The notes below the pieces were generated by a model. That model searched no databases, was not told the origin of the DNA, and worked only from the letters and a program-made list of their open reading frames with translations. The position numbers were made by a program, and so were the translations under genes. A DNA stretch of 41,732 bases from Lachnospiraceae bacterium (GTDB lineage: Bacteria > Bacillota > Clostridia > Lachnospirales > Lachnospiraceae). The stretch lies in assembly GCA_017936885.1 (NCBI GenBank), contig JAGBEO010000009.1, positions 1-41,732 on the forward strand. The letters are read 5' to 3'. Positions 20,509-41,613 of this stretch are shown in pieces; within the stretch, counting starts at the first letter, position 1, and every line of letters starts with the position of its first letter.

Positions 20509-21351
20509 TTACATTGTTTTAACCGCCACAACTGTAATATTATCTTTTTCTCCACGCCGTTTCACGCATTCAATTCCTTCCATCATCGCTCTGCGAATGG
20601 TAGTCCGATCAACCAACTCTTGAGCGGACATGATTTCTTCAAGTTCCTTTTCATTCAGTTTATGTGTAAATCCATCAGTACATAAAAGATAAATCGCAGA
20701 TTCTTCTATTTGTCCTTTTTGGTAGACCGGCAGTATATTTTCCTGCCCGCCTAAACATTGTAAAATAACATTTCGCCTAGGATCTGTTATGGCTTCTTCT
20801 GGTCTCAGCCTTCCTTCACGCACTTCTCTTGCCACCAGACTCTGATCGTCAGTCAACTGCTTAATTTCATTTTTTATGCAATATGCTCTGCTGTCTCCTA
20901 CTTGTGCTATCAGATATTGATTTCCCAAAAACAATACCATAGTCAATGTTGTTCCCAACTTTACTCCATTATTACATCCATATTCATATAGTATTCTATT
21001 TTGTTCACAGATTGTTTCATGTAACTTCTGAGATACTACATCTACTATAGTATCCTCAGACGATTCCATTACCATATTTATCAGAAAGAAATCAAACCAA
21101 TTATTTAAAAGCTGAATAGTGCTTCTACTTGCATATTCTCCATCCGCCAATCCTCCAACACCATCGCATACTGCTGCCATTACAATCGTTTGATCATTTC
21201 TACAGATTATTCTTGCACAACAGGCATCCTGATTTGAATTTCTGCTTATCCCAATGTCTGACAAGCATTCCAGTATATACTTGATTGGCTTACTATCAGG
21301 CATATGCTTATCCGTTTTTTTGTTGCCAAGCAGCACTGTATTTTCTTCCAT
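20509..21351 (-). CDS. PP2C-family Ser/Thr phosphatase
   Basis: A 280-aa PPM/PP2C phosphatase with all metal-site motifs: SDIGISRNSNQD (31-42), VCDGVGG (61-67), GTT (133-135), VGDSRAY (151-157), DDQSLV (168-173), LLCTDG (222-227) and KDNITVV (269-275). No membrane segment is seen, so it is cytosolic, although the first 20 residues are an extra polar tail (MEENTVLLGNKKTDKHMPDS) that also contains a TVLL motif. It is the last gene of the kinase-Tad-FHA locus, 43 bp after the vWA-FHA gene, and is expected to reverse the phosphorylation made by the kinase at 38528-41431. RBS AGGAA lies before the ATG. Confidence 0.93.
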   Translation of the reverse strand: MEENTVLLGNKKTDKHMPDSKPIKYILECLSDIGISRNSNQDACCARIICRNDQTIVMAAVCDGVGGLADGEYASRSTIQLLNNWFDFFLINMVMESSEDTIVDVVSQKLHETICEQNRILYEYGCNNGVKLGTTLTMVLFLGNQYLIAQVGDSRAYCIKNEIKQLTDDQSLVAREVREGRLRPEEAITDPRRNVILQCLGGQENILPVYQKGQIEESAIYLLCTDGFTHKLNEKELEEIMSAQELVDRTTIRRAMMEGIECVKRRGEKDNITVVAVKTM

Positions 21352-21394
21352 ACACCATTCCTGTTATCTACATCATTTTATAACGCTATGTGTT

Positions 21395-22987
21395 CTAAAT
21401 CGGTATAAATTCAACGCACAATTCAACTTCTCCAATTCGGACTTTATTTCCTGATAATAATTCTGTTTCTGTATGAATCATAACATCGTTTAGATATGTA
21501 TGATTCACAGACTGTAAATCTTTGATAAAAAACCGATTATTTCTCACACTAAATTCGCAATGTTGTCCGGAAATTGTTTTACTATAATCTATTGCAATGT
21601 TTACTTTGTCCACATTACGTCCGACAATTACTTTCGTATCTAGCGGATATTTAAAAATCTTATCAGGACTTTTCTGATCTCTTAGAACCAAAAGATACCT
21701 TCCATCTAACAAAACGGTGCCCTCTTGATCCCTCTCCTCGCCAGATACAGGTCGCTGATCATATAATGGCACCTGGTCTGATAAGGGTACCTGAAGCGGA
21801 ACCAACGGCGTGGTTTTGGATATTGTTTTAGTCCTCTTCTGCCCCTCTTTCTCCGCTTTTTTATCTTTTTTCTTCAGAATTATACATAAGCTAATACCCG
21901 CTGCTACAATAACTAATACAGCTACTATTTTAAACATATTACTATGTACATTCTGAACAGTTTCTGGCTCTTCTATTATAGGTTCCTCTTCTATGGGTTC
22001 CTCTTCTTGCAGTATTTCCTCCTCTATTACTTCTGTTGCTGTTTCTTCAGATTTATCTTCAACAACAGGTTCTGGTTCTTCTGTTATTTGAATAGAAAAC
22101 GGCATTGTCACCTGTGCCGTAACATCATATTCTCCATCATCAGTATGTATTGTAAAAAGAGAATTTCTAGTACTTCCGTCTCGCAGTGGCTCTGGGACTT
22201 CTGCTTCGATACAAATCAGATTATTGTCACTCATCAACTGACTTGTCAGCTCCGTGATATCATTCATATCGTCCAGCAAAAACTCCTGTCCATGTGTTAT
22301 TCTCGACAACGCAAACATATTCTCCAGTTCTGTTTGATTTTCTTTATAAATATGTCCCAATGTATACACAGGATGCAAATTCTCTTTTAGTTTATCTAGT
22401 AATTCTTCTTTCGTAATTCCTATCGGCTTATTGTCAACACCATCAGAAATAACAAGGAAACGGGTATATGTACTATCTTCTTTAATTTCATCTAAAAGAT
22501 TAAAGAGAATATCTGTAAGATATGTATCCTGATTATTAAATTCTATGGAGTCAATTGCTGATAATAATGCATCTTTATCCGTAGATTTTCGCTGAAGAAA
22601 TTGAATATCTTCTCCAAAAGTTGCTATACTGATCTCTTCTTTCTCATCTTTGAATTCTATATATTGTCTTAAAAATTCTATTGCCTTGCTTTTATTATCT
22701 TCCGAAATTGACAACGAATTATCCATCAATATAATAGTATGAATTGTCTCACCCATATCACTGATTGTTCCATATGTAACAGAATCACAGGGAGTCGTTG
22801 CTATTTGATAATCTATCTGTTCTGGTTTTTCGTTTCCTTTTATGTAAGCAATAACCTTATCTTCATTAGTTGTAACCTGTTGTAATTGATAAATTTCTTC
22901 TGCTTTCACCTGCATAGTGCAAAACGCTAGCATCAACATAGCTGTTACGATCAAATATGCACTCCTGACCTTTTTTAATTTCCGCAT
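21395..22987 (-). CDS. Membrane vWA-domain protein with cytosolic FHA domain
   Basis: A 530-aa protein. Signal peptide about 1-29 (ending MQVKA); extracytoplasmic von Willebrand A domain about 82-255 with MIDAS-type DNSLS (89-93) and LVISDGVDN (178-186); a Glu-rich spacer (about 303-345); one transmembrane helix (351-371); a basic cytosolic linker; a TVLL motif (T424); and a C-terminal FHA domain (about 445-525) that keeps GR (456-457), SxxH (473-476) and Asn (495). The frame is open to 23086, but AAAGGAG before the ATG at 22987 and the signal peptide fix the start. It could link adhesion or matrix binding outside with phosphothreonine recognition inside. Confidence 0.88.
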   Translation of the reverse strand: MRKLKKVRSAYLIVTAMLMLAFCTMQVKAEEIYQLQQVTTNEDKVIAYIKGNEKPEQIDYQIATTPCDSVTYGTISDMGETIHTIILMDNSLSISEDNKSKAIEFLRQYIEFKDEKEEISIATFGEDIQFLQRKSTDKDALLSAIDSIEFNNQDTYLTDILFNLLDEIKEDSTYTRFLVISDGVDNKPIGITKEELLDKLKENLHPVYTLGHIYKENQTELENMFALSRITHGQEFLLDDMNDITELTSQLMSDNNLICIEAEVPEPLRDGSTRNSLFTIHTDDGEYDVTAQVTMPFSIQITEEPEPVVEDKSEETATEVIEEEILQEEEPIEEEPIIEEPETVQNVHSNMFKIVAVLVIVAAGISLCIILKKKDKKAEKEGQKRTKTISKTTPLVPLQVPLSDQVPLYDQRPVSGEERDQEGTVLLDGRYLLVLRDQKSPDKIFKYPLDTKVIVGRNVDKVNIAIDYSKTISGQHCEFSVRNNRFFIKDLQSVNHTYLNDVMIHTETELLSGNKVRIGEVELCVEFIPI

Positions 22988-23090
22988 ACAAATCTCCTTT
23001 CTCAAACTGAAAATTTTACATGTAAATTCTGCATATATCACGCTAAACATAACTACACAGACACAAATTATGCATAATATGAACAACTTC

Positions 23091-24554
23091 TCAAAACATT
23101 TTAAACTGAAACTCCTCGTCTGCGAACCGAATTACAGCACCATCATATATTTTTTCCATCATACCCTTAGATATCCTTTTGCCGTCCAGAAATGAACCAT
23201 TGGTTGAACCATGGTCAATCAAATAATAAGATCCTCCCTGTTTTCTAATGGTGGCATGCATTCTACTGACTGCTTTATTTCCTTGTATTTGATATTTAAC
23301 ATTTTCGCCACTGCCAAAAGTATTATTTCCTTCTGAAAGCACAAATATGTTATTATCCTGCATGTGAATCAACTGAGCCTCCCCGGATTGTTCCAATTGT
23401 ACTGTATAACTATCTTCTTTAAATTCTACATCTTCCATCAAAACAGTTGCCTCATAGCTTTCATACATTTCACCATCTCTATTCCTCTCCTGCGTAATCG
23501 GTTGTGAATACTCAGCTTGCCCTATTTGAAAAGGTGTAAAAACACCATTTTCCTTCTTTTTATCTTTGCTGCTAAAAGGAATATTAATGGGAAAGCCTTT
23601 TTTAGAAGGCTGCTGTGACAAACCTGACTCGTCATATCCATTCACCTCATGAGCAGTATCTTCCTTAGGTTTTGTATGATTTGGTATATCTAAGGCAACG
23701 GATGAAGGTTTCATGCAATAATCTGTTTTGCCCGGAATATTCATCACCGGAATCTTTGCCGGAGCTATCGCCTTATCCTTCTTTCCCTTTACCGTAATCA
23801 GAGGCTTATTTTTTTCGTTTTTATGTTCTTTATCCTTCTTTAATGCCACATGAAATATAGATTTCTTTTCAGATCCTGAAACTTGTTTTTCTTCTTCCGG
23901 TTTTATTTCCTTTTCTCTGCTCTTAAATACATAATCAGGCTCTTTCGAAACAGGAGTCTGAACCGGTGGAACATATATATCACTCGCACCACCCTGTTTA
24001 TCCGTACTCTCACATTTTTTTAGTAATTCTCTTAAATCAGATAATTTGCGAATACCTCCCCGGTTAAAAGCATTAAGAATATCATATAAATATGGATCTT
24101 TCTCTGTATAATCAGGCTGAATATTCTCAATAGTCCTTTTTAGGAACAAAAGAACATCCATTGGTTCTGTTTCCTCCAGTGGAATGTAAACCATATGACA
24201 TTCATCCTGGCTGTCAAGATACACATAATTTTCATTCAGATACAGTTTCCCCGGATCAAGCATATAACTTTCAGCTTCTTCAAATGCATTGAGAATACTA
24301 TTGAGAATTGTAAGAGCATTCTTTTTGAAGATACCACTTACCAGTCTTTTCTTCATCAATTTCAAATTTGTAATCTGAAATTGCATATTGTAAGAATTGT
24401 TAACTCTCATTAATTGAACCGGAATAATATGTACCATCTCGTTGTGTGAAAGCATATTTAATGCAAAATAATCCATCTCTGTATCAGCATGCAAATCCAG
24501 TATAAGCTGCTCTATTTCTCCTATTGTTTCATGTCTGAAATCCCATTGTTTCAT
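23091..24554 (-). CDS. DUF6382-FHA domain protein
   Basis: A 487-aa cytosolic protein. Residues 1-180 match the DUF6382 type of domain found on Firmicutes FHA proteins (for example LNMLSHNEMVHIIPVQLMRV and VYIPLEETEPMDVLLFLKRT). A long, basic, probably disordered linker follows (180-360), then a TVLM motif (T370) and a C-terminal FHA domain (405-485). The FHA domain has SRMH (430-433) and STNGSFLDG (450-458), but the phosphothreonine-binding GR is GS (414-415). It is 22 bp after the WG-repeat gene. It probably acts as an adaptor between the kinase and the Tad machinery; this is inferred from domain type and position. Confidence 0.85.
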   Translation of the reverse strand: MKQWDFRHETIGEIEQLILDLHADTEMDYFALNMLSHNEMVHIIPVQLMRVNNSYNMQFQITNLKLMKKRLVSGIFKKNALTILNSILNAFEEAESYMLDPGKLYLNENYVYLDSQDECHMVYIPLEETEPMDVLLFLKRTIENIQPDYTEKDPYLYDILNAFNRGGIRKLSDLRELLKKCESTDKQGGASDIYVPPVQTPVSKEPDYVFKSREKEIKPEEEKQVSGSEKKSIFHVALKKDKEHKNEKNKPLITVKGKKDKAIAPAKIPVMNIPGKTDYCMKPSSVALDIPNHTKPKEDTAHEVNGYDESGLSQQPSKKGFPINIPFSSKDKKKENGVFTPFQIGQAEYSQPITQERNRDGEMYESYEATVLMEDVEFKEDSYTVQLEQSGEAQLIHMQDNNIFVLSEGNNTFGSGENVKYQIQGNKAVSRMHATIRKQGGSYYLIDHGSTNGSFLDGKRISKGMMEKIYDGAVIRFADEEFQFKMF

Positions 24555-24576
24555 TGCCGTTTCCCTCTTTTCCTGA

Positions 24577-25872
24577 CTATTCTTTGATCGCCAGTTGTAT
24601 CAATGTCCATGTATTGCCATGCGCTACCGGTGCCGCACCATTATCCGTAAAATTACCCGCCTCTGCAAAATTGTACTCTACTACCAGACGGTTCTCCTGA
24701 TCAATATACCCCCATAATCCATCCTGACATACAGGTGCATAATCATTTGCAAAGGATTTAGCATTCTCATAGGAACAATCAATCACTATGTTGCCTTCCA
24801 AATCCATATATCCCCATTTATCCTCCACGCATACTGCACAAGGCTGTTTGCTCTCAAAGGCTTTCATGTTCTGAAAAGATTGCTCCCCAATTCTCTCTCC
24901 CCTTGTATTAATTAGGAAATATTCACCATTTTGTGCAACACCAATAACTTTATTCAAACTGCAGATTCCAGCACTATTGATTACAACATCATCATAGATA
25001 TACTCTGTGACCAGTTCTCCCTTTCTGTCTATAATTGCCCATTTTTCTCCCTGTCTGACAGCGCCGACACCTTCATAGATTGCTGTTGCTTCATCATAGA
25101 TAAACTCTGTTTTTCCCTGCATATTACTGTCTAAATAACCGAATTTACCATTTATTTTAGCAAGAATTCTCTTCTCAGAAATCACATCCAAATATTCATA
25201 GTTGCTCTCCGGTTCTTTGGTTTTATAACCATCTATAGATATATAAAACCATTCTTTTCCATCTTTTACGGAAATTGCATCTTTATTATTACCATCATAA
25301 ATCAGTTCATCATATACGGCCTCCATAATCATTTGTCCTTCTTCATTTAATAACCCCTTTTTCCCACCTGACTCATATACTGCATAGTTGCCACGAAAAT
25401 TCCCAATATATTCTGAACTTATATAACGTTCCTCATAGACCCCTTTCAACGAATCATAATATGCTTTTACCACTTCATTGCCTGGATATTGCTGATACAA
25501 CTCAGCTACACATTCAATCAAAGTTCCCTGCGAGGAATAATTTTTATGAAAAGACACCATTCTATCCACATCATCTTCTATCGGTCCATAAGTATTCAGA
25601 ATAGCCTTCAATTGTTTCTGATACTCTTTATAATTTCCCATTGCTAAATAGTCATCTGCAATGTATTCCGCCAATTCTAATGTATTCCCCTTAACTTCTT
25701 TCGCACTCTCATATTGTTCTATAGCATCCAGATACAGACCTTTTGCCTCCAAACGCTGCGCTTCCGATATAATTTCTTTATATTTGGATTCATTGCCGAA
25801 CCATGAAGAAAGTGTAATGTACCACGCCAACACTAAAAGAGCCGCCATAATTAATGATAAGTTCTTTTTCAT
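24577..25872 (-). CDS. WG-repeat protein with N-terminal membrane anchor
   Basis: A 431-aa protein with a single N-terminal hydrophobic helix (SLIMAALLVLAWYITLSSW, a signal anchor), a helical TPR-like stretch (about 27-130, for example AKGLYLDAIEQYESAKEV), and then about six WG repeats: KKGLLNEEGQ, KFGYLDSNMQ, KWAIIDRKGE, EYFLINTRGE, KWGYMDLEGN and LWGYIDQENR, each followed by a Y(D/E)-type strand. WG repeats form beta-propeller-like surfaces for binding partners. GGAGG lies 5 nt before the ATG at 25872, which is chosen over the ATG four codons upstream. It lies between the prepilin peptidase and FHA genes and is probably an extracytoplasmic accessory protein of the pilus; function unproven. 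Confidence 0.8.
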   Translation of the reverse strand: MKKNLSLIMAALLVLAWYITLSSWFGNESKYKEIISEAQRLEAKGLYLDAIEQYESAKEVKGNTLELAEYIADDYLAMGNYKEYQKQLKAILNTYGPIEDDVDRMVSFHKNYSSQGTLIECVAELYQQYPGNEVVKAYYDSLKGVYEERYISSEYIGNFRGNYAVYESGGKKGLLNEEGQMIMEAVYDELIYDGNNKDAISVKDGKEWFYISIDGYKTKEPESNYEYLDVISEKRILAKINGKFGYLDSNMQGKTEFIYDEATAIYEGVGAVRQGEKWAIIDRKGELVTEYIYDDVVINSAGICSLNKVIGVAQNGEYFLINTRGERIGEQSFQNMKAFESKQPCAVCVEDKWGYMDLEGNIVIDCSYENAKSFANDYAPVCQDGLWGYIDQENRLVVEYNFAEAGNFTDNGAAPVAHGNTWTLIQLAIKE

Positions 25873-25905
25873 CTTTTCCTCCATCCCTAAGCATTTATTC
25901 AGCTT

Positions 25906-26565
25906 TTAAAAGCCCATTACAATCACGATCAATGCTGCCACAGCAATAAAAGGTGCAAACGCAATCTCATCTCTCATTTTGATCTTTTTAGCTGCCATAT
26001 GGCATACTCCGTATAAGGCTGCCAATGCAGAAGCAGCAAACATTACCGTATACGTCATGCTGGTGCCTAAGTAAAAACCTAATATCATAAACAGCTTCAC
26101 ATCTCCCATACCTACAGCATGACGCGAAACTACATAAGCAATAAACATAATTCCTCCGCAGACTATGCCCCCGCTTATTGTAAAAATCAGATTATCTGCA
26201 AAAGATGACGGATAATAAACAGTTTCCAAAATAAAAATTACTATTCTGATCACGTATAAATAAATCAACCATCTGTTTGGAATCTGCTTTGTTCTTGCAT
26301 CTTCTCTTGCGATCGGGAAAAGAAAAGCAAGCAACAGGCAATATCGTACCGTTTTCAAAGGTCCATATCCATAAAAGGAAAAAAGCCATGTGACCGGCAA
26401 AGCAACTGCCCAAAATAAAGCTATTAATAAGACTCTTTTTCGATCGATCCAGAGTAAAAATGCAGTCCTGCTTAAGTCCTGTTCTTGTCCTAAATCATAA
26501 TTGCAATTAAAATAAATAATATAGGCTATTATTCCTATCACAACTGCCACTATATACTTCATCAT
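25906..26565 (-). CDS. tadV: Prepilin peptidase (TadV/CpaA type, A24 family)
   Basis: A 219-aa integral membrane aspartyl protease with about six hydrophobic segments. The two catalytic aspartates are visible: D89 in AREDARTKQIPN (86-97) and D155 in GMGDVKL (152-158). It lacks the N-terminal cysteine-rich methylase part of PilD, as normal for Tad peptidases. It would cleave the Flp pilin and the TadE/F-like pseudopilins of the locus after their basic leaders. It starts 4 bp after the pseudopilin gene at 26570, so translation is probably coupled. An unusually long loop between the first segments (FNCNYDLGQEQDLSRTAFLL) is seen. Confidence 0.9.
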   Translation of the reverse strand: MMKYIVAVVIGIIAYIIYFNCNYDLGQEQDLSRTAFLLWIDRKRVLLIALFWAVALPVTWLFSFYGYGPLKTVRYCLLLAFLFPIAREDARTKQIPNRWLIYLYVIRIVIFILETVYYPSSFADNLIFTISGGIVCGGIMFIAYVVSRHAVGMGDVKLFMILGFYLGTSMTYTVMFAASALAALYGVCHMAAKKIKMRDEIAFAPFIAVAALIVIVMGF

Positions 26566-26569
26566 ATTT

Positions 26570-27319
26570 TTACCACAATGCTGTTTTTGCTGTTAACTTA
26601 TAGGTTCTTGGTTCCAATTCTATAAAACCTAAATTAAAATGGATCTGATACACTACCGTCACTTCTAAATCCGGCATTCCTCCGGTACTCGTTTGACACC
26701 AGTTGCTCTTACTGAAATCAAGACTACTGAAACCGCCTTCAATTCCTAAATCTTCCAGATACGTATCTGCATCTTTCGTTGTCATACCCTCAAGCTGTTT
26801 CTTCACATTACTTTCTACAAGTTCCTGTATGATATAATTTGAGGTTATGTTAGCCCCTGAACTTTTTATTAAGCTCAAAATATCGGACGCAAGTTCATCT
26901 GTATCTGAGAAATAGTCATATGCCAGATTTCCCGCATGACTTGCTGCTCCCACAACATCACCGCCGTTAGATAGCGTACTTCCCAAATCCTTGACTGCAT
27001 TTACCAAATCAGTCGTCTGACCCTTAAACTGATCCGCCGCAGATGCAGTTGCTACCCTCTTCTCCACAATACCGGTCTTAGTTAATATATAGCTGCATTG
27101 AGACACTTCCTTCGCTACCTCATTAATAGAATACTGTAATATGACCTGCGCTCTTGCTATCTGTACCAGATCCATGAGCGCCATATAGAAAAGAATAAAT
27201 GCCACCAGAAAAATAGACGCCTCAAGTGTAATACTTCCTGAAGTCTTTTCTGTTTTATTAATATCCCTGGATCCCATAATAGGGTATCGTAAAATCTTCT
27301 TCTCCAACCGCTTGTACAT
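26570..27319 (-). CDS. TadE/TadF-like pseudopilin
   Basis: About 249 aa. A basic leader ends in TSG, followed by SITLEASIFLVAFILFYMAL. Gly before SITLE with Glu at +5 is a textbook class-III/IVb prepilin cleavage site, and one transmembrane helix follows. The rest is extracytoplasmic, with a Ser/Gly/Asp-rich middle and a beta-rich end (MPDLEVTVVYQIHFNLGFIEL). The frame is open to an ATG at 27334, overlapping the DUF5702 gene; the ATG at 27319 has AGGA just upstream and is preferred, but an ATG at 27277 is also possible. It is probably a minor pilin of the Tad apparatus. Confidence 0.8.
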   Translation of the reverse strand: MYKRLEKKILRYPIMGSRDINKTEKTSGSITLEASIFLVAFILFYMALMDLVQIARAQVILQYSINEVAKEVSQCSYILTKTGIVEKRVATASAADQFKGQTTDLVNAVKDLGSTLSNGGDVVGAASHAGNLAYDYFSDTDELASDILSLIKSSGANITSNYIIQELVESNVKKQLEGMTTKDADTYLEDLGIEGGFSSLDFSKSNWCQTSTGGMPDLEVTVVYQIHFNLGFIELEPRTYKLTAKTALW

Positions 27320-30641: not shown

Positions 30642-30652
30642 TGAAAACCTCA

Positions 30653-32574: not shown

Positions 32575-32591
32575 CGTCTTACCCTGCCTCT

Positions 32592-33836
32592 CTAAATTTT
32601 CCCCTTATATCCCATTAACCGTAACTTGAAGTCATTCTTCATTTCGTTGTCCGTTCGCTTTAAGGATCCGCTAACTTTTTCTATGGTTGAATTTTCATCC
32701 TCCTCAAATACATAGAGCGGATTTAACAAGATTTCTCCATTTTCATATTTGACAACCTCTGTAATCTCCATAGTTTTTCTAGAATGATCACGCAGTCTGG
32801 ACAGATGAATGATAATATCCACCGCCGATGCAATCTGCTGTCTGACTGCAGTTAACGGCAAGCCCTCAGCCCCTGTCAGCACCATTGTCTCCAATCTGCT
32901 GAGCATATCCCTGGTAGAATTGGCATGTCCTGTGGATAAAGAACCATCATGTCCGGTATTCATAGCTTGAAGCATATCCAGTGCCTCAGCTCCACGCACT
33001 TCTCCGACTACGATTCTATCCGGTCTCATACGAAGTGCAGACTTGATCAGATCACGGATTGTGACAGCCCCTACACCGGCTGTATTGGCATTTCTTGTTT
33101 CCAGGCTGACCAAGTTCTCAATGTTGACAATCTGCAATTCTGCAGAATCCTCAATCGTAATGACACGTTCATCAACAGGTATAAAATTAGATAATGCATT
33201 CAAAAAAGTGGTCTTTCCGGAACCTGTACCGCCGCAAATAAAGATGTTGAACTTTGCCTCTACAAAAAGCTTTAAAATATCTGCTATCTGCGGTGTGATA
33301 GACCCATAGGTAATCAATTTTTCCATTGTCATAGGTTCCTTTGAAAACTTACGGATTGTTACAATCGGTCCTTTGAGTGAAATTGGTGGCAATACTACAT
33401 TGACACGAGAACCATCCGGCAGTCTTGTATCCACAATCGGATTTGCCTGATTCACTTCTCTGCCCGCCAATGCCACAATCCGCTGTATAATATCCTGCAA
33501 TTTCTCTTCACTCTCGAATTTATCCTGCAAATGCAGAAGTTGACCAGACTTCTCTATAAAAATTTCGTCCGCTCCATTGATCATTACCTCCGTAACTGTG
33601 TCATCGTTTATGATAGCATCCAACAATCCAAATCCCCTGATAGAACTGTATATCCGATCTGTCAAGTCAGCCTTCTCACCAATAGAGATATATTGCCCCT
33701 GAAAAAAGGAATCAATTGCTTTCCGAATATCTTCCTCCAGACCTTCATCCGTGACTTTTGTCAGATTAATATCTTCTAAAATCTTCTTTCGAATCGTATC
33801 AATCGCTTGTATCTGTTCTTCTCTCGTCATGACCAT
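32592..33836 (-). CDS. tadA: Tad pilus assembly ATPase TadA/CpaF
   Basis: A 414-aa secretion ATPase of the GspE/VirB11 class. The N-terminal domain ends about residue 115 (VTEVMINGADEIFIEK at 81-96). Motifs: Walker A GGTGSGKTT (202-210), Asp box TIEDSAELQ (227-235), Walker B RIVVGEVRG (274-282), His box TGHDGSLSTGHANS (294-307). As expected for TadA it has no Cys4 zinc site. All catalytic residues are present, so it should be active; it powers pilin assembly at TadB/TadC. The start is uncertain between two nearby ATGs (33836 and 33830), since no clear SD is seen. It follows tadZ by 11 bp. Confidence 0.95.
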   Translation of the reverse strand: MVMTREEQIQAIDTIRKKILEDINLTKVTDEGLEEDIRKAIDSFFQGQYISIGEKADLTDRIYSSIRGFGLLDAIINDDTVTEVMINGADEIFIEKSGQLLHLQDKFESEEKLQDIIQRIVALAGREVNQANPIVDTRLPDGSRVNVVLPPISLKGPIVTIRKFSKEPMTMEKLITYGSITPQIADILKLFVEAKFNIFICGGTGSGKTTFLNALSNFIPVDERVITIEDSAELQIVNIENLVSLETRNANTAGVGAVTIRDLIKSALRMRPDRIVVGEVRGAEALDMLQAMNTGHDGSLSTGHANSTRDMLSRLETMVLTGAEGLPLTAVRQQIASAVDIIIHLSRLRDHSRKTMEITEVVKYENGEILLNPLYVFEEDENSTIEKVSGSLKRTDNEMKNDFKLRLMGYKGKI

Positions 33837-33847
33837 TCAACCACTTA

Positions 33848-34921
33848 CTATCTTATATTTTGAAGGCTTTCCAACCCGGCAAGTCTATCAATCACACCTG
33901 CATAGGTTCCATTTTCTAACTGAGGCAGACTTCCTCTAACACGTACCTGCATAATCTGGTCCGGCAAAAAACTGTCTTTACGGGCTTTATTTATGAAAAC
34001 AATCATCTTGGAACAAATATCTGTCTTCTTGAGCTCTTCAATCACATGCAGGGTATCCAAATAACGTTTCCATTTCACTTCTGCCACTTCACTGGTATCA
34101 ATTACCGCAATCAGCCTGTTTACCAATGACAGTACTGCTATGTCCTTTTCCTGTAAACTGTTGCCGATATCAATCAGAACCTTGTCGTACTTCTGGCTGT
34201 TTTGTATAGCAAGCAAAAGCTCCCCAATATCCTGCACGCTCAGTTCATTCAGTTCTAATGCATTTTCACAGTCACCGAAGTAAAATATCTCATTCTTATC
34301 CTGACAAACCGTACTTTCCAGTTTTAAATCCAATGCTTTGCGCCTACTCTTTAGGGCAAAAATAATTTCCTCCAACCCTTTGTTATCTTCTCTTTGAAAT
34401 ATCAATCCTGTTCCACTGATATTTTCTAAATTCAAATACAACACTGTTTCTGTCTTGGCAAATCTTTTTGCTGCCGCTATTGCGACCGTGCTTGTTCCTA
34501 CACCTCCGCACGGTGCAACAAAGGCATATAATTCTGTTTTGCTGTCTACCAGCATTGCATTCGTATACCGAATGTTGTTTTTATGAGAATATATTTCCAA
34601 CAGATCTCTATAAATCTCGTCAGCACGACGATACTTTGCAATCTCGTATCCTGCTTCCAATGCTTCATCCGATACTTGTTCAACAAGATAAGCGATCAAA
34701 CAATCTCCCAGATGATCCAAAGAATCAACATCCATTTTATTCTTTATCTCTTCGCCCAAAAGCAGAATATCTGTTTTATCTGCCTGAAAAGTATGGAGCA
34801 GATAATCCGGTTCCGTATACATGTCCCATGAAAATTTGTCATAATAATGAATATTAAAATAACGAATCAGCCTTTCGGCATATATATTTTCTTCTGTACA
34901 GATTGCAATCCTTATCTTCAT
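33848..34921 (-). CDS. tadZ: TadZ/CpaE-like localisation ATPase
   Basis: A 357-aa protein with an N-terminal atypical receiver-like domain (about 1-115, DILLLGEEI at 51-59) and a MinD/ParA-type domain. The P-loop at 136-149 reads APCGGVGTSTVAIA: the fold signature is kept, but both lysines of KGGVGKT are absent. DKVLIDIGNSLQE is the Walker B region. TadZ/CpaE proteins place the Tad machine at a pole and often have atypical Walker A motifs. GAGGAA lies 5 nt before the ATG. It opens the core run tadZABC, 55 bp after the LysM gene. Confidence 0.88.
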   Translation of the reverse strand: MKIRIAICTEENIYAERLIRYFNIHYYDKFSWDMYTEPDYLLHTFQADKTDILLLGEEIKNKMDVDSLDHLGDCLIAYLVEQVSDEALEAGYEIAKYRRADEIYRDLLEIYSHKNNIRYTNAMLVDSKTELYAFVAPCGGVGTSTVAIAAAKRFAKTETVLYLNLENISGTGLIFQREDNKGLEEIIFALKSRRKALDLKLESTVCQDKNEIFYFGDCENALELNELSVQDIGELLLAIQNSQKYDKVLIDIGNSLQEKDIAVLSLVNRLIAVIDTSEVAEVKWKRYLDTLHVIEELKKTDICSKMIVFINKARKDSFLPDQIMQVRVRGSLPQLENGTYAGVIDRLAGLESLQNIR

Positions 34922-34976
34922 CCTGATTCCTCACATTTATATCTGTCTTTTTACATTCGTGCATTTCAATCGCAAA

Positions 34977-37900
34977 TTAAGGAATTACAATGACCTGCCC
35001 TACATAAAGCACTGCCGGATCAGATATACTGTCCTCATTAGCATCATAAATTTTTCTCCACTGCCAACCTTTTCCATAAAGCTTCTTAGAAATCTTCCAC
35101 AGCGTATCACCTGGCGTAACAACATAGGTTGTCACAGATGTACCAGACTCATCTGCGGATACTGCAATCGCGCTTGTCTGTATCGGGTAAATCTTGATTT
35201 CCTGTCCTACACGAATTACATTGACATCTCTGATGACATCCATGTTATCCTCATAAATTTTTCTCCAAAGCGAACCGTCTCCATAATATTTTGTGGAAAT
35301 TCCCCAAAGCGTATCGCCCGCTTTCACAATATATGTGATTACATCAGCAGAAACATTTGATCCTCCTGCTGCTACACCATTTCCTGAAGATGTTACAGCA
35401 TCAGTATTAATGCTATTACCCTCACTACCTGTTCCAGCATTATTCGTGCTATCATCATACACCAAATTTCCACTTGCGGAATCATTACCATCATTGTTAC
35501 TGCTGCCTTCACTACTATTACCAGTATTACCGCTGTTTCCATTATTGCTTCCGCTATTACCACTGCCACTGCTTCCATCTGTTAAATAGAAGTTCTGCGC
35601 TGCTCTCCTCAGTGTGTCTTCCGATGTTCTAAACTCCACACCGAGAGTATGTCTTCCGGTTGTATTAGATTTTGAAAGTGTCTGACTGCTGATTGTCAGT
35701 CTGGTACTGCCGGATTCTGCCTCATACTCATCAGCGCTTAATTCTTCACCATCCAAAAATACCTTTTTAAATTCTCCCAAAATACCTTCTGAGACAAAGG
35801 TATGACTTGCTGTAGAGCCAAGGGATATATTTTTCGGAATGCGCTGTGTAACCGTATATCCTTCATCCGTGGCATTGTCCACATTGGCATCCGTATTTTC
35901 TACAACGTCCAATACAAAATTCTTGGTGACAGAATGCCCCGGCATCATGCTGCATACCATTTTTACGTAGAAATAAAATTTCCCTGTTTCTTTCGGAACG
36001 CCATAGATTTCTCCGTTTGACATAATTTCTATTCCATCCGGAAGCGTACCGCTGTCAAAGGCATAGGTAATCTTATTTTCACTGTATTTGTTACTGTTCT
36101 GAATCATGGTTCCATAAGGTACATATTGTACAGCCTGTGGTATACTGTCAGTGAGAATCTGCGGCATACCAGTGACACCAGTTAATTCCAGTACCATAAT
36201 ATCCTGTCCGTCAGCTTTAATAGTCAATGTACCTGATACTTCCGTGCCGGCTGCCACACCATCCTTAGCTTTCAGACGGACCTTAGCTAAATTAGGCAAT
36301 TCACCATAATACTTCGTTTTCTCTGTACCAGCATAAGCTGCTAGATCATGATTTCCGCTTAATGTCCAGTATTCGTCTATTATCACGGTATCGGATTCTA
36401 ATTCTGCCGACAATTTAGGGATTACATTCGTTCCCATATTCACCAAAAAGATGTCGTGTCCGACTTCATTGCTATCGTATAATATCACTTCCCGTTTGGA
36501 ATGAATAACACCGTTATCGTCCACATATGTTTCTGAGTCTTTATCTGCAAGACTGTTTGTATATAATTTGTAAGTAAGTCCTTCGATTGCTGCTACGTTA
36601 TCGGTCTTTATTACGGTCAGCCAACAGTTCTTCTGGTTCTCGCCGTTTTCAGAAGCAGTTGTATACTGCACAGGCCCATGTGAGAAATCTTGTCTGCTTT
36701 CCCCGCTTGTCTGCACTGCATTTGCATCCGGACTGCTGCCAGCATACAGTCTCACGCCTTCTGATGTAGTAAAAATTGGTGCCAAATTGGTTAAATCCAC
36801 ATCGTTATCAACTAATATTGTAGGATAGCTTCCATCTCCATAGGAATCATCCTTTGACTCTATCGTATAACATTTAATATTGTTGCCACTTGCGTCAAGC
36901 AAACCTGTAAATGTAACATCTGCACCGCTATTTTTTGCTACGATCCCCTCTTTCGTCTTAATACAGTAGTGATAAACCTCTTGTCCTTCCGTGCCATCAT
37001 CTCCCAAAAAGATAGAGAAATATACGCCCTGACTGTAGTCAGCAGCATAGCCTGCCGTAGCATAATCATCTCCAAACAATGCTTCCTTAACCTCTGATGC
37101 TTCAGCACTTTCTGCTTCTGCAATGGATGAATACAATGTCTTATCCGCATAAGCTGCCGTTACCGCTCCATTGTTTAAACTGCCGTTCTGATAATAACTC
37201 ATAGTCATGCAGTATGTTCCGTCTGCGGCATAACCAGCATATAACTCATAAGTTTCTATTCTACATCCATTTTCAGTTTGGCTCCAGGATGCATTGTAGA
37301 CATATTCCCGTCTTGAATCTACTCTTTTAAACATAGAACCTGTACTAACGTAATTCGTGCTTGATGTCCCCTGCGGATATAAATACAGGTAAAATGGAAG
37401 ACATCCTGTTACCTTACCATTTGTGTCATAAGAAACAATCGTAATCCATTGAGATTCATATTTCTCAACTTTATACCCCGCCTCCTGCTGGTTCATGTCA
37501 GCAGAAAAAATTTGATCTGTAATTTCCGTTCCTGTCTGTGCCTCATCAGCAGAAGTATATTTTCCTTCATATACCTTCATATCAGCAACACTGCCGCCAT
37601 AAAGAGAATCGTTAATACTAATTCCTAAATATAACTGCTGACCATCAACCATATCGTCAGAAGACATTCCTATCCTCAGTTCCCGATCATCTAGGTCATA
37701 ATCATAATATCCATATCCAGATACTGTGACAGGAGTACGACTGCCTGCATCATCCTGCGTGTATACAGTCGGTATGAGCCACTCCTTAGAAGCTGTAATC
37801 TTTGCTCTAACAATATACCGCTCAGCATCGACATTAAGCTGATCACCTCCCGGAATCATCTGCCAATTCCCATAATTAGAATAATAAGTGTTGCAACTGA

Positions 37901-38492
37901 TATTGGCAGTTCCAGAATAATCGTTTACAAAGAAATCTTCTTTTCCATCTAAATATGCATATGAAATAGTATCAACACCGCCTAAATTTTCTCCTGCAAA
38001 GATAACCGAAAATGGCACCATCGTGAGTTCTACCGGCATATATGCGGATAAGTCAGGTGTAATTGTCTTTTCTTCCAAAGGCAATAAGGAATAGACGGAT
38101 ACTTTACCTTTCTGTGTTACTGAAGTCTCTTCCCCGTCAGTCTCTTGCTCCTCATTATCTTTCTCAACCGAAGACTCCTCTTCTTCTCCTTCGGTTGGAA
38201 TTTCCTCTTCTACTTCTCCCTCTTCTGGTTCTTCTTCCTTAGTTGAATTATCCTCTTCTGTTAGTTCCCCCTCGGTTGAAATTTCCTCTTCCGACTCTTT
38301 TTCCCCATCCGAAACTTCCTCTTCAGCTTCTTCTTTGTTTATCTCTTGCGTCTCCGGCGTTTCCAATTCTGATGTTTCCACTGTTGTAGTAGTTCCTTCT
38401 GCTAAAGCCGCATTAACCGCAAATGTCGGCACACTAGATAACATCAGTACCATTGCAAGTGCAATTGCCATCTTTTGCTTCATACTTTTCAT
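34977..38492 (-). CDS. Large secreted LysM protein
   Basis: A 1171-aa protein. Signal peptide about 1-29; an extremely acidic, Glu/Thr/Ser-rich stretch (about 37-131); a large region of beta-rich repeats without a firm match; an Ig-like segment (PDGIEIMSNGEIYGVPKETG); an X2-like module (VFLDGEELSADEYEAESGST); a Ser/Gly/Asn linker (about 985-1050); and two LysM domains (about 1053-1103 and 1122-1171; YIVKAGDTLWGISTKYYGDG and YVVTPGDTLWKISKKLYGKG). LysM binds peptidoglycan, so the C-terminus would sit in the wall with the acidic end outward. It lies between kinase and tadZ, so it may be the envelope anchor or channel of the pilus, a role otherwise unfilled in a monoderm. AGGAG lies 10 nt before the ATG. 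Confidence 0.85.
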   Translation of the reverse strand: MKSMKQKMAIALAMVLMLSSVPTFAVNAALAEGTTTTVETSELETPETQEINKEEAEEEVSDGEKESEEEISTEGELTEEDNSTKEEEPEEGEVEEEIPTEGEEEESSVEKDNEEQETDGEETSVTQKGKVSVYSLLPLEEKTITPDLSAYMPVELTMVPFSVIFAGENLGGVDTISYAYLDGKEDFFVNDYSGTANISCNTYYSNYGNWQMIPGGDQLNVDAERYIVRAKITASKEWLIPTVYTQDDAGSRTPVTVSGYGYYDYDLDDRELRIGMSSDDMVDGQQLYLGISINDSLYGGSVADMKVYEGKYTSADEAQTGTEITDQIFSADMNQQEAGYKVEKYESQWITIVSYDTNGKVTGCLPFYLYLYPQGTSSTNYVSTGSMFKRVDSRREYVYNASWSQTENGCRIETYELYAGYAADGTYCMTMSYYQNGSLNNGAVTAAYADKTLYSSIAEAESAEASEVKEALFGDDYATAGYAADYSQGVYFSIFLGDDGTEGQEVYHYCIKTKEGIVAKNSGADVTFTGLLDASGNNIKCYTIESKDDSYGDGSYPTILVDNDVDLTNLAPIFTTSEGVRLYAGSSPDANAVQTSGESRQDFSHGPVQYTTASENGENQKNCWLTVIKTDNVAAIEGLTYKLYTNSLADKDSETYVDDNGVIHSKREVILYDSNEVGHDIFLVNMGTNVIPKLSAELESDTVIIDEYWTLSGNHDLAAYAGTEKTKYYGELPNLAKVRLKAKDGVAAGTEVSGTLTIKADGQDIMVLELTGVTGMPQILTDSIPQAVQYVPYGTMIQNSNKYSENKITYAFDSGTLPDGIEIMSNGEIYGVPKETGKFYFYVKMVCSMMPGHSVTKNFVLDVVENTDANVDNATDEGYTVTQRIPKNISLGSTASHTFVSEGILGEFKKVFLDGEELSADEYEAESGSTRLTISSQTLSKSNTTGRHTLGVEFRTSEDTLRRAAQNFYLTDGSSGSGNSGSNNGNSGNTGNSSEGSSNNDGNDSASGNLVYDDSTNNAGTGSEGNSINTDAVTSSGNGVAAGGSNVSADVITYIVKAGDTLWGISTKYYGDGSLWRKIYEDNMDVIRDVNVIRVGQEIKIYPIQTSAIAVSADESGTSVTTYVVTPGDTLWKISKKLYGKGWQWRKIYDANEDSISDPAVLYVGQVIVIP

Positions 38493-38527
38493 AACTTACT
38501 TTCTCCTCTCCACTATTCTTTCTCTTA

Positions 38528-41431
38528 TTATTTCTCCGACAAATATGTCTCTCCCATGTCAATTAACTCCTGCATGGAATACAGCGGGCATTGCCGAAGT
38601 TCTCCCGAATTATAATCGAATACCAGATATTCGTCCGTAATATCACACAGTCCCGGCAGATATGCCAGTGTCTCCATATCCTGATTCAACAAAAGACCAT
38701 ATCTCTCCCCTGCTGCACTGACGTATTCTGTAATTAGATAATCCTGTACCTGCGTTACATAAGTGAGATAGGAATCCTTTTCTAATATAGTGATAAACTT
38801 CCCTGTCTTCCTGTCATACACCTCTGCTGCAGAATGAAGTGATGATACAATCCTGTATTGATCTGTGTAAAATTCCTCATACAAATCTTTGTCAGGTTCC
38901 TCCATCTGTTGTTCAGATATTACGAAACCGGTCCCGGCATCATAGCGTCTTACAGTACCATCGTACCAAGTCACTTCTAGCCATGAACCCTCTGCCGTTC
39001 TGATAAATTGCTGATCATAAATATATTCAGCATCCGGCAAATCAGTCTGGGCAACAAGCTGACCTGTCATATCATAAACAGCAAATTGTTTATAATTGAA
39101 TAGCATAGCATTCTGACCATCTATACTAATCCGAGCTTCATCATGTTCATATCCTGTATCATAGGCTAATAATCTTGTACCTTCATGCTCCTCCATCTTT
39201 AAGAGTCTCACGCCAGGTTCATCACGGTTAGCCAACACAGCATAACTTCCGGATAATGCAACAAAATCACAATTTTCTTTACAACTTTCCGTTGACATCA
39301 GATTAGCAGCTCTATCATAGAAAGACACACATTTATCTTCCGTTGCAACTAACACATAATCTTCACTGACCGAAAAGTTTGTAATATTAGTATTCTTTGT
39401 ATATGCCAGTTCTTTTTCTTCTTTGGTTTCCGGATTAAAAGCAACTAACAAATTATTACTTGCAAGATAAATGCCCTGTTCATCTGCGTGCACCAGATAT
39501 GCATCCTGTGATTCATATCCCCCAAGATACTCAGCTTTATCCACATCAATCAATCCAAAAACCGACTGACCGATTTTGTTAGCTGCAAAGGCAAAATAAT
39601 GGTCATAAAACCCACCTTCAAAGTGATCAAAGTCCGAAGAATCATAAACAATCATGGTTTCTGTTGGATGCTCTACATCAAAAATGGTTAAGCCTCCATT
39701 ATCAAAGCTAACTGCCAACAAACTTCCATCATAGTTCAGCTCAAAAATACTATCTTTTGCATCCGCAAATATATCATTGACCGGAACCTTCATACGAAGT
39801 CCACTAAAAACGCATTTTGACATCTCCATGCCATCTGAAACCCGATATATTACTGCATAATCTTCAGCTCTGTTGACTACCGCTAATCTATTTGCGTCTT
39901 TGGATAGAGAAAATGTTGTCCCCACATCGCCTATCCAGTTATATTCCTTTTTTTCCAAATTATATGAACTTACTCCCTGATCTCCCGCATAAATAATATT
40001 ATTTTCATCAATAAACACCACATCTGCTAAAGCCGAATGCTGTATTGGTAAAACAACTATTTCTTGATTCATGTCCATATCATATATTGTCACTTCATAT
40101 GCATAGACCACAGCCAAACGAGTTCCTTCCGGGGATAATACAAGTTCAAAAGGAGCTGCCGAAAGATTTAGTGTATCCAGCGCTTTATAGTTATCAGACA
40201 AATCATAGATTCCTAGTGCATCTGTCAAAGCCTTTTGTGCCTGTGCTGCTACTGGAGCGTTTAATATACTCTTTTCTTTTGGAATTGCCTGTAATGCAAG
40301 TGCAATAGCCTCCGATACATCCCCCTGCTCCAGCGCATTGGCGGAATATTCTGATAACACTAATGCATTTTGCCTTTGTTTTAACTGATTTAATCCAACA
40401 AAAGCACTCGTCCCACCTGCCAGAAAAAGAAATGATGACATTGCTACCGAGAATATTACTCTCCTTTTATGACGGACTATGCGTGGATCATTTTTGCAAA
40501 GCTGATGAAACGCATGTAACATCTCTTCCGCCGATTGATATCTCATATCAGGCTGAGGCGCAATTGCTTTCTGTATAATATCTATAACCGACTGATTGCA
40601 AATATCTGTTTCAAGTAGCTCTACTTCACGGGCATCCTGAGCAGGTCGTTTTCCACTGATCATATGGTACAATGTAGCGCCCAGACTATAGATATCCGAC
40701 CGGACATCTAACATGATTGCCTTTTTTTCCTCTGTGCCGCTACTATCGGAGTTTCCCGAAAAGCTCAACTTCTCAGTCTGCAGTTGTTCTGTCTGCCCCA
40801 ACACTAATGTCTTATCTGGATCTTCTTCTGTTTGATTTGTCTTAAGATTGATTATTTTTTTGACAGCAGATGCTTTACTGCTTTTAATATAATCAGCCCC
40901 ATAATGTTCCGGTGACGCATACCCCCTGCTAAATCCAACCTTGATTGCTCCATCTTCTCCCAAAGCAAGAGCAATATTATAATCAATTAAACAAATGTTT
41001 CCGTCTGGACGCAGCATAATGTTGGCAGGCTTTATATCTCCATGAAGAATTCCATAAGGCGGCTGACTATGAAGATAACAAAGCGCCTCTAACAATTGAC
41101 ATGCCCATTTTATAATCTCAGCCTGTGATGCTTTCTGATTTTTCGCCAGAATTTTATCAAAGCTTTCTCCTTCTATATAATCCATAACGGTATATACAAT
41201 CCCGTCTTCCTCTACAAAATCATATACTTGCGGGATATAGGTATGACTTAGGTTTTTCAACATATCTACTTCCCGACGTAAAGATTCCATTCTAGTACTC
41301 AACTTACGTTTATCCGCTTTCAACACCACATCTTTATCAAGACGTATATGCCGCCCCAAATAAACAATGCCACCACCGCCGGCGCCTATTTGTTTTTGTA
41401 TCTCATATAAGCCTGCTATCACCTGAGACAT
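38528..41431 (-). CDS. Transmembrane Ser/Thr protein kinase with beta-propeller sensor domain
   Basis: A 967-aa Hanks-type kinase. Gly loop IGAGGGGIVY (15-24), Lys38 in VVLK, Glu54, catalytic HGDIKPAN (130-137), and DYN (150-152) replacing DFG; SPEHYG (173-178) is the APE region. About 60 residues (180-240) separate this from DVRSDIYSLG, where about ten are usual; this insert holds TEEDPDKTLVLGQTEQLQTE. One transmembrane helix (324-346) follows, then a helical stretch and a WD40/quinoprotein-like propeller (about 410-960, for example LVLSPEGTRLAVVYAYEVTIYD) expected outside. No PASTA repeats. GAGGAA precedes the ATG. It probably phosphorylates the FHA and Tad proteins encoded downstream; substrates are not shown by sequence. 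Confidence 0.9.
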   Translation of the reverse strand: MSQVIAGLYEIQKQIGAGGGGIVYLGRHIRLDKDVVLKADKRKLSTRMESLRREVDMLKNLSHTYIPQVYDFVEEDGIVYTVMDYIEGESFDKILAKNQKASQAEIIKWACQLLEALCYLHSQPPYGILHGDIKPANIMLRPDGNICLIDYNIALALGEDGAIKVGFSRGYASPEHYGADYIKSSKASAVKKIINLKTNQTEEDPDKTLVLGQTEQLQTEKLSFSGNSDSSGTEEKKAIMLDVRSDIYSLGATLYHMISGKRPAQDAREVELLETDICNQSVIDIIQKAIAPQPDMRYQSAEEMLHAFHQLCKNDPRIVRHKRRVIFSVAMSSFLFLAGGTSAFVGLNQLKQRQNALVLSEYSANALEQGDVSEAIALALQAIPKEKSILNAPVAAQAQKALTDALGIYDLSDNYKALDTLNLSAAPFELVLSPEGTRLAVVYAYEVTIYDMDMNQEIVVLPIQHSALADVVFIDENNIIYAGDQGVSSYNLEKKEYNWIGDVGTTFSLSKDANRLAVVNRAEDYAVIYRVSDGMEMSKCVFSGLRMKVPVNDIFADAKDSIFELNYDGSLLAVSFDNGGLTIFDVEHPTETMIVYDSSDFDHFEGGFYDHYFAFAANKIGQSVFGLIDVDKAEYLGGYESQDAYLVHADEQGIYLASNNLLVAFNPETKEEKELAYTKNTNITNFSVSEDYVLVATEDKCVSFYDRAANLMSTESCKENCDFVALSGSYAVLANRDEPGVRLLKMEEHEGTRLLAYDTGYEHDEARISIDGQNAMLFNYKQFAVYDMTGQLVAQTDLPDAEYIYDQQFIRTAEGSWLEVTWYDGTVRRYDAGTGFVISEQQMEEPDKDLYEEFYTDQYRIVSSLHSAAEVYDRKTGKFITILEKDSYLTYVTQVQDYLITEYVSAAGERYGLLLNQDMETLAYLPGLCDITDEYLVFDYNSGELRQCPLYSMQELIDMGETYLSEK

Positions 41432-41442
41432 TTCACATTCCT

Positions 41443-41613
41443 CTATTTCATCCCTGTGCTCCCTGTTTCTCCATATTCCTTTTCCAGTTCACGGTTTATC
41501 TTTCTTCCTACTGACCTGAAAATCAATCCGCACGCCGCCCCCGCCATTACTGCTATTGTCATCAATAAAATTCCTCCATAAAACAGAATTTCGCTTCTTG
41601 ACACGTCAAACAT
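41443..41613 (-). CDS. Small single-pass membrane protein
   Basis: A 56-aa protein. MFDVSRSEI is followed by one hydrophobic helix (LFYGGILLMTIAVMAGAACGLIF would span 10-32), then a basic and charged tail (RSVGRKINRELEKEYGETGS). It ends 11 bp before the kinase start and is read in the same direction, so it is likely the first gene of the locus in this window. The RBS is weak (AAAGGGAAAAT); an internal ATG at 41562 with GGAGG 10 nt upstream would delete half the helix and is less likely. The family is not recognised. It may assist the kinase or the pilus base. Confidence 0.7.
   Translation of the reverse strand: MFDVSRSEILFYGGILLMTIAVMAGAACGLIFRSVGRKINRELEKEYGETGSTGMK

Follow-up and report, generated by a model that had tools for sequence, protein, structure and literature searches.

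Kinase and phosphatase genes accompany one of two lineages of FHA-bearing Tad pilus loci in Lachnospiraceae, with putative phosphothreonine docking motifs

The stretch of DNA analyzed here (the window) comprises 41,732 nucleotides on contig C15 (JAGBEO010000009.1) of a 3.57-Mb Lachnospiraceae genome that is 93.6% complete (GCA_017936885.1). A run of 16 genes occupies its minus strand from position 41613 to 20509 with intergenic gaps of -77 to +96 bp, and combines the core of a Tad pilus with a transmembrane Ser/Thr kinase, a PP2C phosphatase and two FHA proteins (Table 1). A preliminary description of the window had claimed this union, and open reading frames (ORFs) together with Pfam and NCBIfam matches confirm it. 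Comparison with other Tad loci reveals that kinase and phosphatase follow one of two lineages of the ATPase TadA, and that short threonine motifs are enriched ahead of the FHA domains and on membrane proteins encoded next to many of the kinases.

TadA, a TadB/TadC platform, TadZ, Flp, pseudopilins and a prepilin peptidase stand together in the one locus, which identifies it as encoding a Tad pilus; TadB and the two smaller TadE-like proteins were assigned by position, profile relatives and topology. The description of the pilus as secretin-less also holds, as PF00263 had no match anywhere in the genome; the same search matched in 6 of 14 control genomes. Secretins (RcpA in diderm systems) are not expected in a monoderm. 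The window ends 119 bases past the first gene of the run, which encodes a microprotein of 56 amino acids (aa). Its relatives were found by tblastn (E ≤ 1e-5) in five other loci (a piece of G014, G111, G128, G173 and G209; these handles are ours), with weaker ones in G108 and G246; by eye, one is present before the G023 kinase and none was seen ahead of that of G061. In the window's kinase the propeller consists of Pfam matches below the curated cut-offs, and the transmembrane stretch barely exceeds the hydropathy limit (1.66 vs. 1.6). Hydropathy and flanking charges place the vWA part of the vWA-FHA protein outside the membrane and its FHA domain inside, such that this protein could carry a signal across. 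Genome-wide there are three Ser/Thr kinases and three PP2Cs, two of the latter adjoining the other kinases, while both FHA domains of the genome lie within this run. Promoter and terminator scans gave counts close to those of shuffled sequences, and Rfam and tRNA scans were empty.

Table 1. Genes, domains and threonine motifs of the 16-gene run.
Feature	Position	Strand	Evidence
56-aa single-transmembrane microprotein, first gene, before kinase	41443..41613	-	ORF; tblastn relatives upstream of same kinase type
Transmembrane Ser/Thr kinase, 967 aa; kinase domain about 1-300, transmembrane stretch 325-343, probable extracellular propeller	38528..41431	-	PF00069 Pkinase, 2.1e-38; hydropathy
Kinase insert, about 65 aa, between PEH and DVRSDIYSLG segments, contains DKTLVLG	40709..40903	-	Kinase alignment
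LysM protein, 1171 aa, signal-like N-terminus, two C-terminal LysM domains	34977..38492	-	Pfam LysM, 5.4e-23; hydropathy
TadZ	33848..34921	-	PF21194, 6e-16
TadA ATPase, lineage A	32592..33836	-	PF00437 T2SSE, 2.6e-62; TadA tree; best NCBIfam TIGR03819, below cut-off
TadB	31777..32574	-	Position, profile relatives in 80 loci, three hydrophobic stretches; no Pfam match
TadC	30899..31765	-	PF00482 T2SSF, 4.8e-10
Flp pilin	30653..30862	-	PF16982 Flp1_like
TadE-like pseudopilin 1	29982..30653	-	N-terminal hydrophobic stretch, profile relatives at Tad loci; no Pfam match
DUF5702 protein, TadG-like position	27258..29885	-	PF18960
TadE-like pseudopilin 2	26570..27334	-	N-terminal hydrophobic stretch, profile relatives at Tad loci; no Pfam match
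A24 prepilin peptidase	25906..26565	-	PF01478
WG-repeat protein, N-terminal hydrophobic stretch	24577..25884	-	PF14903; hydropathy
DUF6382-FHA adaptor; FHA domain 23124-23321	23091..24554	-	PF19909, PF00498
Threonine motif EATVLM, ahead of FHA domain in DUF6382-FHA	23436..23453	-	Motif scan
vWA-FHA protein: signal-like N-terminus, vWA, transmembrane stretch 386-404, C-terminal FHA 21431-21631	21395..23086	-	PF13519, PF00498; hydropathy
Threonine motif EGTVLL, ahead of FHA domain in vWA-FHA	21707..21724	-	Motif scan
PP2C phosphatase	20509..21351	-	PF13672, 2.8e-12; NF033484, 1.1e-51, below cut-off
Threonine motif ENTVLL, N-terminus of PP2C	21328..21345	-	Motif scan

Of 250 genomes of the same family, 245 have a TadA match (E ≤ 1e-40), and 81 Tad neighborhoods, the window included, were compared and divided into two lineages by layout and a TadA tree of 112 rows. 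The 52 loci of lineage B, which mostly come from the top of the TadA ranking and are not a random sample, fall together in the tree (support 81). Lineage A, present in at least 29 of the 250 genomes, has 29 loci, 27 of which group with 11 named loci (support 92), with G111 and G105 lying apart beside a Clostridiales metagenome-assembled genome (MAG). Most lineage-A loci follow the order tadZ-A-B-C-flp-tadE-DUF5702-tadE-A24-WG-DUF6382/FHA. A lineage-A TadA also occurs in a MAG labeled Cellulomonadaceae (L134), where the pilin half of the locus is inverted, reflecting either transfer or a binning error. In G093 (L007, L086, L286) the Tad locus contains a long tandem run of DUF5702-like fragments and ORFs of about 250 aa, which looks like the repeated copying of a pair of genes.

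A kinase was found at 22 of 29 lineage-A loci vs. 0 of 52 lineage-B loci, and PP2C gave the same counts (Fisher p = 4.2e-14 for each, with loci that are not independent). Lineage-A loci were fetched with longer flanks than most of lineage B; six lineage-B loci were extended too and showed no kinase, and a first count over 20-kb stretches (the window in full) had already given kinase or PP2C in 19 of 29 vs. 0 of 52. Among the 24 uncut lineage-A loci, 22 have both genes (in G093 both were seen after longer extension of the locus), G061 has a kinase only and G005 has neither. Left out of the 24 were G010, G046, G014, G105 and G148, which have contig ends or a broken locus; the kinases of G046 and G014 are on other contigs (L253 and L280), and G105 has a PP2C at its contig end. 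The WG-repeat protein likewise belongs to lineage A (24/29 vs. 0/52), while DUF6382 is common to both lineages (25/29 and 50/52, 75/81 overall), as is the FHA domain (23/29 and 38/52, 61/81 overall). A LysM-type protein related to that of the window was found in 6 of 29 lineage-A and none of 52 lineage-B loci, and vWA in 1 of 29 and none of 52, by a profile that was built from a single sequence and could overlook relatives (it did detect L133, L279 and L281); apart from the window, one Butyrivibrio MAG was the only case in which this profile showed vWA-FHA at a Tad locus. Hence, vWA-FHA and LysM were rejected as core parts, and a link between kinase and Tad loci in general was rejected given its absence from the 52 lineage-B loci. 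The preliminary description had named recurrence of kinase, PP2C, DUF6382-FHA and vWA-FHA together around TadA as support for its model, and had conceded that kinase and FHA genes missing from most related loci would refute it. This recurrence is seen for kinase and PP2C in lineage A and for DUF6382 in both lineages, and fails for vWA-FHA; for kinase and PP2C, absent from every lineage-B locus examined, the concession applies to the family as a whole, in which lineage B is the commoner.

Two named loci near lineage B by layout, L146 (on the opposite strand) and L153, have a kinase within 10 kb. In 2 of 10 Paenibacillaceae Tad loci, and likewise in L144, a kinase lies upstream of TadZ, and L127 has kinase and PP2C and L139 a PP2C. 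A possible counterpart outside Bacillota is an Oligoflexia MAG (L203), where genes for two FHA proteins and one PP2C immediately precede those for Flp and TadA. The window's genome has a second Tad locus, of lineage B (L025; G000:C19:36000-55999), in which no DUF5702 or DUF6382 was found after Flp, so that the locus could be broken or split.

The catalytic Lys, Glu, Asp, Asn and Asp and the Glu of the PE segment are invariant in 21 aligned Tad-locus kinases, which thus have the residues of an active Ser/Thr kinase. These kinases are not of one descent. A kinase-domain tree of 88 rows, 27 of them from lineage-A loci, needs 14 changes of label between Tad and non-Tad, of which at least 10 are forced by starred branches (a quick method, with L253 labeled non-Tad, probably wrongly, as it is probably part of the Tad locus of G046). 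By their sequences the Tad-locus kinases are thus polyphyletic, the slot being kept and its occupant swapped. The window type, with probable propeller and long insert, forms a starred clade whose 11 rows all come from Tad loci; lineage A has three further types, namely class ii (whose close kin lie in cassettes not associated with Tad genes), a zinc-ribbon type and a fourth one. The C-terminal parts vary too: of five other Tad-locus kinases scanned, G025 has tetratricopeptide repeats, G024 has leucine-rich repeats, and G006, G237 and G223 gave nothing beyond the kinase domain. The earlier proposal that binding by an extracellular propeller is the trigger is therefore not general. Several lineage-A loci share the order PP2C, kinase, small transmembrane protein, large immunoglobulin-like (Ig-like) protein. 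A similar cassette in L247 consists of genes for a TadZ-like protein, DUF6382-FHA, PP2C, kinase, small transmembrane protein and Ig-like protein, with no TadA in the stretch fetched.

In the last 70 linker residues ahead of the FHA domain, the pattern T[VTILMF][LVIMF][LIMVF] occurs in 16 of 22 lineage-A DUF6382-FHA proteins (mean 0.7, maximum 5 in 300 composition shuffles) and in 28 of 37 from lineage B (mean 2.3, maximum 8); with Ser in place of Thr the counts are 1 of 22 and 2 of 37. The narrower T.[VIL][LM] gave 12 of 22 and 23 of 37 (0.6 and 2.3 expected), and its Ser version 1 and 3. In a second set of named loci, which includes Paenibacillaceae and in which L132 and L145 repeat loci of the first set, 17 of 29 linkers matched (shuffle mean 1.8, maximum 6), against 3 of 29 for Ser. 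Of about 60 linker sites, 38 have Leu at +3, a position that the pattern itself restricts, and 39 have Gly or Glu at -2. Two control letters reached or passed the shuffles, Arg with 7 of 37 (maximum 6) and Ala with 4 of 22 (maximum 4); in 6 of 7 Arg sites and 4 of 5 Ala sites the motif's own Thr is adjacent. About three quarters of the first set, and 17 of 29 in the second, thus carry what marks self-recognizing FHA proteins, a conserved Thr (not Ser) motif beside the FHA domain.

Similar motifs were found in the window-type kinase inserts, 9 of 13 of which contain T.[VIL][LMD] (expected 2.3, maximum 7; Ser 0 of 13; Lys control 4 of 13, mean 1.5, maximum 5), where G061 and L131 are one locus counted twice and Asp at +3 was added after G128 and G088 had been seen. 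Moreover, the small single-transmembrane protein encoded directly after class-ii kinases and after that of G025 has 48 T.[VIL]L sites across 15 cytoplasmic tails (expected 1.9, maximum 7 in 500 shuffles; Ser 0; five other letters 0-2). The Tad-locus subset has 17 sites in 7 tails (expected 0.8, maximum 3). Examples are ETTVLS and ETTVLN in G006, five GTVVLPK-like copies in G025 and six copies in L255; the tails of G123 and G093 have no site. This set was hand-picked from loci with a short ORF after the kinase; the L262 ORF, probably in the wrong frame, was dropped before counting, G093 was placed among the non-Tad group, and so was L253 despite its probable place in the Tad locus of G046. In the window the motif stands in four places, namely the kinase insert, both FHA linkers and the N-terminus of the PP2C. 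The last is rare, as a motif within the first 40 residues was found in only 2 of 27 PP2Cs at these loci (the window and G088). G128 has ATQID both in its kinase insert and in its FHA linker, and by eye the +3 letter (Leu/Met or Asp) seems matched between kinase and adaptor of a locus. Taken together, these motifs have the appearance of phosphothreonine docking sites: in such a docking system one would expect a Thr motif adjacent to an FHA domain and further copies on a membrane protein that neighbors the kinase.

Most FHA domains keep the residues of a phosphothreonine pocket. Among 90 domains (a few loci twice) the pocket residues are G in 89, K/R in 80, S in 74 (G in 14), H in 89 and N in 87, and the window's vWA-FHA has the canonical set, its DUF6382-FHA having Ser for Arg/Lys. 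In L192 and L197 FHA is fused to TadA, as also in the class III CpaF proteins (PMC12019362), and these fusions suggest that FHA acts on the ATPase. Sequence comparison is suggestive of DUF6382 being a degenerate kinase fold: hhalign gave probabilities of 48.0% against 21 Tad-locus kinases (P 1.8e-4), 25.8% against 52 and 49.8% against 112 kinases, while three half samples aligned in the same register at 48-54%, vs. 0.8% or less for ten control families. Against 31 mostly PrkC-type kinases alone the value was 0.4%. Pfam found PF19909 in 100 of 100 DUF6382 members and other families as single weak hits, and PDB sequences matched at E 0.3 or worse. Kinship of DUF6382 with EssB/YukC was rejected, as one YukC protein gave no signal.

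With moderate confidence, we favor a mechanism in which Thr motifs, switched by kinase and PP2C and read by FHA domains, control the Tad pilus without new transcription. The gene set, its link to lineage A, the intact kinase residues and the enrichment of Thr motifs are features of the sequences themselves; we infer from them threonine phosphorylation, FHA binding, the Tad part that is touched and the sign of the effect. The receptor-type kinase would phosphorylate threonines of short T-x-[VIL]-[L/M] motifs in partner proteins, and the PP2C would reset them. In the window the predicted sites are in the insert of the kinase itself, in the linkers of both FHA proteins and in the tail of the PP2C. 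An FHA domain could then bind the phosphorylated motif of its own chain, closing the adaptor as in GarA, OdhI and DgcB, or alternatively a motif on a different protein, which would bring adaptors together at the membrane. DUF6382-FHA, a regular component of Tad loci in Bacillota, would relay this state to the Tad base, probably to TadA or TadZ, and pilus extension or retraction would be switched. The circuit of the preliminary description is thus partly supported: kinase and PP2C accompany one Tad lineage, the DUF6382 adaptor accompanies both, and Thr motifs fit for FHA binding are enriched in linkers, kinase inserts and small membrane-protein tails. The absence of kinase and PP2C from all 52 lineage-B loci examined, the rarity of vWA-FHA and the lack of a general propeller go against it.

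Several observations weigh against this mechanism. The motif patterns were chosen after viewing the data and several were tried, and for that reason the second set and the Ser controls count for more than the first counts. Over whole proteins, T-pattern counts exceed shuffles for TadA in both lineages, TadZ in lineage B and PP2C in lineage A (where Ser matches are also many, 29), and the DUF5702 count of 36 is near the limit (shuffle maximum 37); outside the linkers the T-pattern alone therefore proves nothing. Indeed, the Thr motif as a mark of all operon proteins was rejected: TadA exceeds shuffles (the window's matches are a Walker-type GKTTFL and an ETMVL site), and whole-length kinases do not (22; mean 14.9, maximum 28). 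Within the window, the 56-aa transmembrane protein has no Thr motif, and DUF6382-FHA has Ser where 80 of 90 FHA domains have Arg or Lys. Additionally, 12 of the 50 lineage-B loci carrying DUF6382 have no FHA domain that could be found, implying that DUF6382 has some use without FHA, and lineage B holds adaptor and motif without a linked kinase, which is thus not generally required; there, some other kinase could serve. Finally, kinase-PP2C-FHA cassettes also occur away from Tad genes.

Such stand-alone cassettes are what one would expect if the cassette were a mobile, general envelope-stress switch, placed in the Tad operon for co-expression and directed at wall proteins instead of the pilus motor, and large Ig-like, LysM or choline-binding proteins do adjoin many of the kinases. 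However, the kinase is missing from all 52 lineage-B loci examined, and an FHA adaptor with its Thr motif is present at the Tad operon even where no kinase is, and we regard this explanation as unlikely. Still less probable, in our judgment, is that the FHA domain works by phospho-independent contact between folds, as stated for the FHA domain of EssC and the pseudokinase EssB (PMC11217815), with the weakly kinase-like DUF6382 as partner. The hhalign values and the missing Arg/Lys in the window's DUF6382-FHA are consistent with such contact, whereas the pocket residues kept in most FHA domains, the preference for Thr over Ser, the low value against PrkC-type kinases and the null result with YukC argue against it.

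The cassette could also regulate type VII secretion systems (T7SS) that merely neighbor Tad genes, the pilus not being its target. A kinase, a PPM phosphatase and DUF6382-FHA are described as T7SS components, and T7SSg/h as adjoining Tad genes (PMC11217815); the G024 Tad kinase is sister (98) to the kinase of L264, whose contig holds WXG100 genes; and a second FtsK-type match (4.7e-17) lies on the Tad contig of G182, about 40 kb from TadA. That match, with the FHA-less lineage-B loci, led us to raise this explanation slightly and to lower the pilus switch slightly. We nevertheless consider it the least likely of the three, in view of the window's genome (0 WXG100 matches; one strong FtsK-type match and three at 1.8e-4 or weaker), of 18 of 24 lineage-A genomes without a WXG100 match (in 17 of the 24, a second FtsK match below 1e-15 was lacking as well), and of DUF6382 at the Tad operon in 75 of 81 loci.

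The T7SS variants are all the same the closest known relatives. In variants c-j the regulatory parts are the kinase TsxD, the PPM phosphatase TsxF, the single-transmembrane TsxH, the Ig-like TsxI and the DUF6382-FHA protein TsxJ; the authors raise control by threonine phosphorylation and leave open the link to Tad genes beside some systems (PMC11217815). The protein kinds are the same as here, and several lineage-A loci share the order of PP2C, kinase, small membrane protein and Ig-like protein. In contrast to those variants, the genes here are part of the Tad operon, in genomes mostly without WXG100 matches, and the window holds the regulatory half of a T7SSe-type system (transmembrane kinase, PPM phosphatase, DUF6382-FHA) without the secretion half. 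The likeness to TsxH and TsxI is one of form and place; the passages of PMC11217815 consulted give no role for TsxH, and in TsxH-like proteins we find arrays of Thr motifs. The earlier parallel with PpkA-Fha-PppA of type VI secretion stands for the presence of kinase, FHA protein and PP2C in an operon, and yields to the T7SS variants in closeness. That pathway also includes the phosphatase PppA. As in that system, a membrane kinase, an FHA reader, a Thr phosphosite (predicted here) and a PP2C belong to the operon of a machine. There, the phosphothreonine is on TssL (PMC3953482); here the machine differs, and the predicted sites are on adaptor linkers, kinase inserts and small membrane proteins.

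FHA domains have been placed on Tad machines before, in the Kil system of Myxococcus, for which a signaling cascade was proposed (PMC8460266), and in class III CpaF (PMC12019362), including fusion to the TadA/CpaF ATPase. Kil, unlike the present locus, has a secretin, and the main text describing it does not use the word kinase (PMC8460266). FHA systems read the +3 position, and DgcB, GarA and OdhI recognize their own Thr tail, with Glu at -2 and hydrophobic residues at +2 and +3 (PMC6733907). The motifs here resemble these in lying in a flexible segment next to FHA with hydrophobic +2 and +3 residues, and differ in lying in the linker after DUF6382 instead of N-terminally and in that their phosphorylation is predicted. 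In the Sulfolobus archaellum, ArnA (FHA) and ArnB (vWA) also combine FHA, vWA and phosphorylation (the last predicted here) on a type IV filament, although they act on archaellum expression (PMC6509490), whereas here vWA and FHA are in one protein, with a transmembrane stretch between, in the pilus operon.

In our searches of open-licence literature we found no published explanation of how such monoderm Tad pili are controlled, and no publication on kinase control of a Gram-positive Tad pilus or on Thr arrays in TsxH. The cassette in T7SS variants (PMC11217815) and FHA on Tad machines (PMC8460266; PMC12019362) are already published. New, as far as those searches show, are the cassette fixed in one Tad lineage, mostly without WXG100, and its swapped kinases, as well as the Thr motif before FHA, the Thr arrays on small membrane proteins and the 56-aa protein before window-type kinases.

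Beyond the run, two short ORFs behind the PP2C (19274-20418), one weakly Cache-like and one HAMP, resemble pieces of a broken chemoreceptor gene. A flagellar block follows (4964-19158), with flagellin, FliS, FliD, a flagellin-N protein, FlgK, FlgN and FlgM; it has two FlgK-like genes (14770-16626 and 16671-18317) and two FlgN-like genes.

More broadly, we tentatively suggest, with somewhat less confidence than we place in pilus control itself, that these genes form a transferable phosphothreonine module for different envelope machines. Interchangeable receptor kinases would write and PP2C would erase; small single-pass membrane proteins with T-x-[VIL]-L in tandem, or kinase inserts, would become multivalent docking platforms; and DUF6382-FHA, possibly with a degenerate kinase fold, would be the reader that sets the motor of the Tad or type VII machine. 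The findings suggest that proteins described in print as T7SS components can also function where no such system was detected, and the motifs, which name candidate threonines, would link pili and type VII secretion through a common switch. TadA-type ATPases occur in 245 of 250 genomes of the family. The Thr motifs repeated in the switch proteins, by suggesting docking places, make a kinase-phosphatase pilus switch a testable idea.

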